64,000 nt of DNA from positions 62,001 through 126,000 of the forward strand of contig QAZA01000045.1 of NCBI GenBank assembly GCA_003054695.1, read 5' to 3'. The number at the start of each line of letters is the position of its first letter. Positions within the stretch are counted from its first letter, which is position 1. The notes beneath the pieces are model-generated. The model searched no databases, was not told where the DNA came from, and saw nothing but the letters and a program-made list of their open reading frames with translations. A program made the position numbers and the translations under genes. The DNA comes from Verrucomicrobia bacterium LW23 (GTDB lineage: Bacteria; Verrucomicrobiota; Verrucomicrobiia; Methylacidiphilales; UBA1321). Positions 45,487-62,871 of the stretch are shown here, piece by piece.

Positions 45487-45582
45487 CGGAGGGGGGAGGC
45501 GCGAGTACACATGTGCTAAAGCCTCTCCAGAGGTACCCAAACGATCTTTGGGCCAGGAATTGATACGGCAACTGACGCGTGA

Positions 45583-45774
45583 GCCTGCCACAGCAATCTC
45601 CATCCCCCGTAGCGTACGTTGCGTTTCCGCCCGTTGCGACCGTTGCGTGAAAATCTGCTCCACGTATGGCTCCACTCCTCAGCGGTGCCAAGCCTTTGAC
45701 GGATTTTCACGCAACGGTCGCAACGGGCGGAAACGCAACGTACGCTACGGGGGATGGAGATTGCTGTAGCAGGC
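45583..45774. repeat. 73-bp near-perfect inverted repeat
   Basis: Arms 45583-45655 and 45702-45774 match at 72 of 73 positions in inverted orientation; the loop is 46 nt. The right arm is built of phased words CGCAACGGT, CGCAACGGG, CGGAAACGC. It lies between ppk and the small membrane protein. No transposase is nearby. Confidence 0.93.
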
Positions 45775-45869
45775 TTCAGGGGCCGGCGCCGGCGCATGCG
45801 ACCGGGGCGTGGACGCATTCCCACCGCGTTGTGATTTCGCACTCGCAACGCGGCGGCGGGTTGTATACG

Positions 45870-46361
45870 ATGAGCAGCAGGGCAGCGCGCGCCGCGAGAG
45901 GTCGCACGCTTCCTTGCAGATCCACGATCTACGAGCTCATGTTCATCATCCATAGCTTCGCCCTGGCCGGCATTCTCTACTTTGTGCTTGCGCGCAAGGA
46001 TCTCTTCTTTGAGCGGCTGCTGTTTCTCTGCGTGGGCATTTGCCTGGTGCAAAGCCTGCTGATCTGGCTCGTGCCCGTTATTGCCATACCCAACGTTGCC
46101 AGCGAGCCCAACGAAACCCGCTTCTGGCTCGACCCCGCAGCGCCGGGTGTGGAAGCGGCGCGCATAACGCTCTCCTTCTGGCTTAACATGGCCTTCCATG
46201 CGTTGCTGGTGGGCTTTATCATCTTTTGGTTTAAGGTGGATCCGCTCAAAGCGTGCGCGATCGTGGGGGCGTATATGGCGTATCAGCTCGTCCTCGGGTT
46301 TATCCTCAACCAGTTTGTCCTGCTGCTGTCTACCACGCGGTCCAAGCCTATCGGGTTCTGA
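45870..46361 (+). CDS. Small polytopic membrane protein
   Basis: A 163-residue protein with four hydrophobic segments (about 25-43, 50-68, 90-115, 125-150 from the ATG at 45870). A later ATG at 45939 (MFIIHSFALAG) would begin right at the first helix and may be the real start. It lies 59 bp before dop on the same strand, so they may form an operon. No family recognised. Confidence 0.6.
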   Translation: MSSRAARAARGRTLPCRSTIYELMFIIHSFALAGILYFVLARKDLFFERLLFLCVGICLVQSLLIWLVPVIAIPNVASEPNETRFWLDPAAPGVEAARITLSFWLNMAFHALLVGFIIFWFKVDPLKACAIVGAYMAYQLVLGFILNQFVLLLSTTRSKPIGF

Positions 46362-46420: not shown

Positions 46421-47962
46421 ATGTCCGCCCCCCAGCTCTGGCCCGTCCTGTTTGGTCTGGAAACCGAAATCGGCATCAGCGTCGTGGAGAACCCCGGCGC
46501 CGACGTGGTGGAGGAGTCCATCGCGCTGGTGCGCTCCGCCACCCAGTACGGGCTGCCGCACTTGTGGGATTACACCTTTGAGGACCCGCACATGGACGCG
46601 CGGGGCTTCCGCGCCAAGGAGCTGCTGCAGGATACGGACGAAGCCAACTACTTCTCCCAGGATTGCCGGCGCGAGCTGACGTTTGCGGAAATCAAGAGCG
46701 ACCTGGTGCTGCGCAACGGCGCGCGCTTTTACAACGACCACGCGCACCCGGAGTTCAGCACGCCGGAGTGCGCCACGCTGCGCGACCTCATTGCCCAGGA
46801 CAAGGCCGGCGAGCGGATTCTGGAAGATTGCGCGCTGAATGTAACGACGCATGGCGGCCGCACCGTAAAGCTTTACAAAAACAATACGGATTTCCTCGGC
46901 CACAGCTACGGCTGCCACGATAACTACCTCATCGCCAGGGACATCCCGTGGGACCGCGTCGTCCGCGCCATGACACCGTTCCTCGTCACGCGGCAAATTT
47001 ACGCCGGCGCCGGCAAGGTGGGCTACGAGAGCGAAGACGCGGCGTCGCTGGGCGCGGGCTTTCAAATCTCCCAGCGCGCGGACTTTTTTACGGAGCTGGT
47101 GAGCATCGACACGATGAACCGCCGCCCGCTCATCAACACGCGCGACGAGCCGCATGCCGACAACCGCCGCTACCGGCGCTTTCACGTTATTGTTGGCGAC
47201 GCCAACATGGCGCAGTTTGCCACGTGGCTTAAGGTGGGCACCACCGCGCTTGTGCTGGAGGCGCTGGTGCAAGGCGAACCACCGCAAGGGGTTACGCTGG
47301 CCGATCCCCTTCTGGCCAACCGCGCCATCTCTCACGATGCCACCTACCGCTGGGCCGTAACGCTGAGCGACGGCCGCCAAAGCACCGCCATTGCCGTGCA
47401 ACGCGCTTACCTGCAATGGGTTAAGGAACGCGCCGACCTCTCCGCGCCGGAGAAGCTGCAATTGTGGAACGACTGGGCCGAAACCCTGGACCTGCTGGAG
47501 AGCGACCCGCTAAGCCTTCGCGACCGCCTGGACTGGCCCGCCAAACGCTACCTGCTGGATACCCTGCGCGAAGCCGAAGGCCTGGAGTGGAGCGACCCGT
47601 GGCTGCAAAGCATCGACCTGGAGTACCACCTGCTCGACCGCGAGCAAGGCCTCTTCTACGCCCTGGAAAACGCCGGGCACATGCGCACCCTGGTGGCGGA
47701 CAGCGAAGTGCTTCACGCCGTGCAGCAGCCCCCATCCACTTCGCGCGCCTACATCCGCGGCCGCTGCGTGCAGCGCTTTGCCAAGGACCTGAACAGCGCG
47801 CAGTGGGATAACCTCGTCTTTAATCACGATGGCCGCAAGTACCGCCTGGATCTGCGCAACGCCTTCACCCTGTGCGAGATCGACGACATCGCCGCCGCCG
47901 TGGAGAGCGTCAGAGACGTCGCCCAGCTCATCACCGCCCTGCAGTTGACGGAAGTGCGATAG
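46421..47962 (+). CDS. dop: Dop-type deamidase/depupylase of the Pup/UBact system
   Basis: A 513-residue member of the carboxylate-amine ligase-like PafA/Dop family. GLETEIG (12-18, metal-binding E14), then WDYTFEDPHMDARGF (49-63) and NGARFYNDHAHPEFSTPEC (99-117, catalytic D106), KNNTD (153-157), SYGCHDNYL (162-170), NTRDEPHAD (239-247) and ISQRADFF are present. The WDYE-type and YxDHAHPE blocks follow Dop rather than PafA (which reads YLDVGSHPE). Dop deamidates the tag C-terminal Gln or removes the tag from substrates. No ligase, tag, ATPase or proteasome gene is in view. Confidence 0.9.
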   Translation: MSAPQLWPVLFGLETEIGISVVENPGADVVEESIALVRSATQYGLPHLWDYTFEDPHMDARGFRAKELLQDTDEANYFSQDCRRELTFAEIKSDLVLRNGARFYNDHAHPEFSTPECATLRDLIAQDKAGERILEDCALNVTTHGGRTVKLYKNNTDFLGHSYGCHDNYLIARDIPWDRVVRAMTPFLVTRQIYAGAGKVGYESEDAASLGAGFQISQRADFFTELVSIDTMNRRPLINTRDEPHADNRRYRRFHVIVGDANMAQFATWLKVGTTALVLEALVQGEPPQGVTLADPLLANRAISHDATYRWAVTLSDGRQSTAIAVQRAYLQWVKERADLSAPEKLQLWNDWAETLDLLESDPLSLRDRLDWPAKRYLLDTLREAEGLEWSDPWLQSIDLEYHLLDREQGLFYALENAGHMRTLVADSEVLHAVQQPPSTSRAYIRGRCVQRFAKDLNSAQWDNLVFNHDGRKYRLDLRNAFTLCEIDDIAAAVESVRDVAQLITALQLTEVR

Positions 47963-61795: not shown

Positions 61796-62871
61796 TTTGC
61801 GCCGCGCAGGGCGATTGTGCTGTCAAAGATCCGGTAGGAAATCTTCATGGGATGCTCGCGAAGCACCTTGTCCAGCGCCAGCAGATCACCGTCCAGCGCG
61901 GCGGAGGTTGCAAAGAGCGTTGGAGGGATGAGGCTCACCGGCGTCGGGGAGTTGGGGGGATTCAGCCGAACGGAACTCTTCTCGTCGATAACCACCATCA
62001 CCACCCGTACAAGCGGCGGTAACTGATGCAGGGTAGTGCCGGAGTATCCCGAGCCCGCCGGCGGGCGCGTGGTAAAGGCCCGGCTCTGGCGCGAATCATA
62101 CGCATAGTCCGGGGCCAGTGCCGTGCCGTCGTCCTCTCCCTTTGGCAGCACCGGCACCAGCAGCAGGAGGATAACGTTGTCCGCCACGTCATGTGTCACC
62201 GGGGCGCTTGCGGCGGAGCTGGCAAAGTACGTGCGAAACCAGTCGCAGCGCGTGGAATCCGTCCAGCCCGGCGCCTGCACCAGGGAAGCTTCCGCCGGCT
62301 CCGTAAACTGCCGCAGACGCCAGCGCCATTTTCTCTGATAACTGTTGCCGAGAAAGGACGGCATCACCGGCTCCTGGCTGTACTCCACAAAGTAGCCGCA
62401 GCCGTTTATGAGGTTGGAGAGACGCCCTAAATCGGTCTTGTCCTCCGAGTATCCCAGCGGCGCTGTAAAAAACACGGCGCTGCCACTGTACTGGGGCGAG
62501 TTGGATAGAAGATTCTTCGCCGGACCACAAACAAAATGCAGGCTGGACTGGCGCACATAACGGGTTGGCGCGTTAGGGTTGTCATAATCCCAGTACGTGT
62601 TTAAGGAAGCCTGGCGAAGCCGCTGTGTGATGGAGAAAAACGCGCCCCTCGCGTTGCCAAACATCTCCACCTTGGTAACCGACGCGCGCCATACCTGATC
62701 CAGCTGCTTCGTCAATTGCACCACCGCTACCATCAGAACCAGCAGCACGGCAATCGCCACCATAAGCTCCACCAGAGTAAATGCCCTGCGCCTGACGCGC
62801 GCGGACGTGCGCCAACGGGCTGCTCCCATCGGAATCGTTACGGCCAGGGAAGTGAGGCTGGGCGCGTTCAT
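61780..62871 (-). CDS. Verru_Chthon cassette protein C (GspJ/PilW-like pseudopilin)
   Basis: A 363-residue pseudopilin. The leader ends RRRA with alanine (A30) rather than glycine before the cleavage site, then FTLVELMVAIAVLLVLMVAV with E35 as Glu+5. GspJ-like globular part: NARGAFFSITQRLRQASLN. It overlaps protein B by ATGA (62868-62871) and protein A at its end. A later start at residue 15 is possible. Confidence 0.85.
   Translation of the reverse strand: MNAPSLTSLAVTIPMGAARWRTSARVRRRAFTLVELMVAIAVLLVLMVAVVQLTKQLDQVWRASVTKVEMFGNARGAFFSITQRLRQASLNTYWDYDNPNAPTRYVRQSSLHFVCGPAKNLLSNSPQYSGSAVFFTAPLGYSEDKTDLGRLSNLINGCGYFVEYSQEPVMPSFLGNSYQRKWRWRLRQFTEPAEASLVQAPGWTDSTRCDWFRTYFASSAASAPVTHDVADNVILLLLVPVLPKGEDDGTALAPDYAYDSRQSRAFTTRPPAGSGYSGTTLHQLPPLVRVVMVVIDEKSSVRLNPPNSPTPVSLIPPTLFATSAALDGDLLALDKVLREHPMKISYRIFDSTIALRGAKWSRD

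Follow-up and report, generated by a model that had tools for sequence, protein, structure and literature searches.

The dop gene that stands alone in the stretch of DNA analysed here (the 64-kb window, positions 62001–126000 of contig C45) very probably encodes a Dop that belongs to a complete UBact-proteasome system of the ordinary kind, with its genes scattered over one contig. Dop is the enzyme that deamidates the UBact (Pup-like) tag or removes it from proteins. We favour the reading as an ordinary scattered system because every partner is present elsewhere in the same genome, forming a complete single-copy set, and because the same genes are contiguous in relatives.

The dop gene and its neighbours in the window

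The two genes of interest in the window are the following:

46421..47962, + strand: dop, which starts with ATG and encodes 513 aa free of internal stops, with E14, E16 and D106 conserved
45939..46361, + strand: small membrane protein, ~140 aa from its probable start, 60 bp upstream of dop

The first-pass annotation had described a complete Dop with E14, D106 and a WDYxxExP motif, and this description is borne out. The intact reading frame matches the Pfam Pup_ligase family (PF03136, a family with a glutamine-synthetase-like fold) over its full length (residues 10–465, E = 1.5e-159). In a phmmer search residues 11–473 align with the structure-solved Dop 4b0r_A / 5lrt_A (E = 2.8e-116), and the match to 9cku_G has E = 2.9e-112. 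Opposite E8, E10 and D94 of 4b0r_A the alignment places E14, E16 and D106, so that both nucleotide/metal-binding glutamates and the catalytic aspartate are intact; the loss of active-site residues that the annotation had allowed for is not seen. The WDYxxEDP...DARGF block is present, and so is the Dop-loop insertion, which is absent from the PafA of the same genome. The distinctions between Dop and PafA, including the Dop-loop, have been described (PMC7947786). Against the NCBIfam models the protein scores 472.6 bits for Dop (TIGR03688), narrowly missing the curated cut-off of 492.3, compared with 380.4 bits for PafA (TIGR03686; cut-off 551.3), and by these scores it falls clearly on the Dop rather than the PafA side.

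The immediate neighbours of dop are ppk1 and the small membrane protein. The latter, also reported in the first-pass annotation, is real as an open reading frame; the frame is open from 45666 (45666–46361), its first codons fall in a repeat, and the probable start lies near 45939. Since profile searches gave no family match for it, and no match was found beside any of the ~95 other dop loci examined, the membrane protein is probably unrelated to dop.

Between ppk1 and the membrane protein gene, upstream of dop, lies a near-perfect palindrome (45582–45775) with 95-nt arms that are 88% complementary and separated by a 4-nt gap. The arm sequence is found at dozens of places in the genome (66 matches with E ≤ 1e-3), mostly in inverted pairs, and the palindrome is therefore a copy of a dispersed, REP- or MITE-like palindromic repeat family.

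Partner genes elsewhere on the contig

Genome-wide searches for UBact, a second Pup_ligase gene, the proteasome and ARC placed none of them in the 64-kb window. The earlier observation that the window is free of partner genes thus stands, as all other components map outside it. The implied absence of the partners was an effect of window size: ARC is encoded 23.7 kb beyond the left edge, and on the same contig, some 592 kb rightwards of dop, is the UBact-prcB-prcA-pafA cluster. The genome search proposed in the first-pass annotation found PafA, UBact, ARC/Mpa and proteasome genes, and the apparent puzzle resolves into an ordinary split locus. The components found outside the window are as follows:

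C45:36818-38338, minus strand (local coordinates L120:8780-10969, minus strand): ARC/Mpa, with AAA, Prot_ATP_ID_OB_N and Prot_ATP_ID_OB_C
C45:702291-702413 (local coordinates L004:9160-9417): ubact, the single match to PF20513 (E = 9.9e-22), product tail RQRTGE
C45:702602-703192: prcB, directly after ubact, the sole proteasome-family match in the genome (PF00227, E = 5.3e-20)
C45 ~703.3–703.9 kb (local coordinates L004:10303-10926): SUKH/SMI1-KNR4-like gene, between prcB and prcA
Between the SUKH-like gene and pafA: prcA-like gene, in a place shared with the protein of relatives
C45:704767-706098: pafA, PF03136 (E = 2.1e-106), with the conserved Asp in GGRLYLDMGH

The genome contains exactly two Pup_ligase (PF03136) genes, the window dop and the pafA-like gene, and one clear ARC/Mpa. 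As read from the sequence, PrcB retains the catalytic N-terminal Thr and the equivalents of Asp17 and Lys33 (numbered from the first Thr of the mature-type TTVISF motif). The PrcA-like protein has no Pfam match, and it is 46–70% identical, in local tblastn matches, to the protein that occupies the same place in relatives. The genes thus occupy three places on C45 that are not contiguous: arc at 37 kb, dop at 108 kb (70 kb from arc), and the rest at 702–706 kb. In the last of these the genes ubact-prcB-SUKH-prcA-pafA are all on one strand, with 4-base overlaps between ubact and prcB, SUKH and prcA, and prcA and pafA, and the SUKH reading frame begins 2 bases past the end of prcB. By its gene content, the UBact-proteasome system of this genome is complete, with each part present in a single copy. 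Contamination misassembled into the contig is an unlikely source of the 702-kb cluster, because all parts lie on one contig of 1,012,735 bases (1.01 Mb) and the 6.6-Mb assembly is 95.4% complete with 1.39% contamination.

The ARC protein scores 430 bits against TIGR03689, compared with a cut-off of 504.75, and scores were below this cut-off in 17 of 17 genomes tested. Sub-cut-off scores for both Dop and ARC could be expected if the NCBIfam models were built mainly on actinobacterial proteins.

GQYL is the proteasome-docking motif of actinobacterial ARC/Mpa, and it differs from the C-terminus of the ARC found here, AEVSAIV; other Verrucomicrobiota ARC proteins likewise end in hydrophobic residues (I/V). 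The SUKH-like gene matches PF09346 with E = 1.9e-4, just under the cut-off. Its slot between prcB and prcA is occupied by an OsmC-family gene in most of the genus g2 relatives read, and neither SUKH nor OsmC occurs there in genus g3, family f9 or genome G011.

Gene order in relatives and isolated dop genes

The Pup_ligase family was found in 25 of 60 relatives. The order arc-dop-ubact-prcB-prcA-pafA is conserved and contiguous in G019, G024 and G038 (family f9) and in G004 (genus g3 of family f1). In genus g2, from the window's own family, arc-dop-ubact-prcB-prcA are together and pafA is on another contig. The window Dop is 60–65% identical to the cluster-encoded Dops of these relatives, and the window genome represents a further step in the dispersal of the same gene set. 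The relatives form a small series from contiguous genes to a threefold split, which could be used for studying how an operon breaks up.

We also surveyed 80 named dop loci from public genomes, nearly all of them titled Verrucomicrobiota and many with flanks that end at contig ends. Among these, the whole run of genes was seen at 10 loci and most of the run at 8, arc alone adjoined dop at 49, and dop stood alone at 13. From among these, 30 Verrucomicrobiota genomes, picked because their dop looked isolated, were searched for the partner genes. UBact was present in 28 of the 30, a second Pup_ligase match in 28 (a few of these being fragments), and a proteasome match over the cut-off also in 28. 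UBact was not found in two of the 30 genomes (G080 and G086), both of which have a second Pup_ligase gene, and another two (G062 and G089) gave only one Pup_ligase match, both with UBact; these four exceptions are probably incomplete drafts. The counts show that scattering of the UBact-proteasome genes, and hence a lone dop, is routine in Verrucomicrobiota; contiguity is common but absent in many relatives. Iyer et al. (2008, PMC2588565) described Pup-type genes in Methylacidiphilum and other Verrucomicrobia, whose products have G[EQ] at the C-terminus, and noted that in most genomes, though not all, these genes are linked to those of the proteasome. A published statement that split UBact loci are common in Verrucomicrobiota was not found in the openly accessible literature, and their commonness is taken from our own count.

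The Chthoniobacterales were considered as possible carriers of a Dop without ligase or tag, with 62 loci lacking ubact, prc and pafA in the flanking sequence retrieved. This was rejected, as 28 of the 30 genomes just described have two Pup_ligase matches and 28 have UBact.

Two other readings of the window were weighed. One holds that this is a true orphan Dop, repurposed for another modifier or substrate and independent of the proteasome. The window itself, with no partner in 64 kb and with the unrelated ppk1 and membrane protein as neighbours, would agree with such a reading; against it, the same genome has the full single-copy set of UBact, PafA, PrcB, PrcA-like protein and ARC, no second Dop exists in the genome to serve that set, and the window Dop is orthologous by identity to the cluster-encoded Dops of relatives. 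We regard a repurposed orphan as scarcely credible, and the genome-wide search rules it out save for a possible extra role. The other holds that Dop and the adjacent membrane protein are a conserved pair acting at the membrane, as their common strand and 60-bp spacing might suggest. It is highly improbable, and was rejected for the lack of any match to the neighbour at ~95 other dop loci. A dop alone in a window is no evidence of an orphan enzyme in Verrucomicrobiota, and caution is called for because UBact-proteasome genes are often dispersed.

Predicted role of Dop and comparison with known systems

As is established for these protein families, the tag is attached to lysines through its C-terminal Glu by PafA, tagged proteins are passed to the proteasome by ARC, and Dop either detaches the tag or, where the tag ends in Gln, deamidates it. 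Judging from the families of the proteins, PafA from the 702-kb cluster would link UBact by its terminal Glu to lysines of the substrates, ARC/Mpa (37 kb) would unfold the tagged proteins into the PrcA/PrcB proteasome, and Dop (108 kb) would take UBact off proteins. Because UBact already ends in Glu here (TGE), deamidation is likely unneeded, and tag removal is the likely role of this Dop. We speculate that, with dop and arc located outside the operon, removal of the tag is uncoupled from its attachment and Dop is regulated as an independent de-tagging enzyme in a lineage whose UBact ends in Glu, and consider this proposal unlikely.

Among the loci read, with some genomes counted twice, the UBact tail was RTGQ in 23 and RTGE in 8. 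Even close relatives thus differ in whether the last residue is Glu or Gln, and dop is kept in both cases, which is consistent with tag removal, not deamidation, as the conserved need.

Among known enzymes the closest is the deamidase/depupylase of Pup, the Dop found in Acidothermus cellulolyticus and in mycobacteria (PDB 4b0r/5lrt/9cku). The window Dop shares with it an end-to-end alignment, the catalytic E/E/D, the WDYxxExP...DARGF block and the Dop-specific insertion before the catalytic Asp. It differs in that it would, from the genome content, act on UBact and not on actinobacterial Pup, and in scoring slightly below the NCBIfam Dop cut-off. Compared with the contiguous UBact-proteasome cluster of Verrucomicrobiota, the gene set and the internal order ubact-prcB-prcA-pafA are the same, whereas here arc and dop have each moved away and a SUKH-like gene lies between prcB and prcA. 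The split arrangement of Chthoniobacterales (arc-dop / ubact-prcB / pafA, for example in Chthoniobacter flavus) is similar in that dop is far from the tag and proteasome genes and all parts are in the genome; there, however, arc usually adjoins dop, whereas here the two are well apart.
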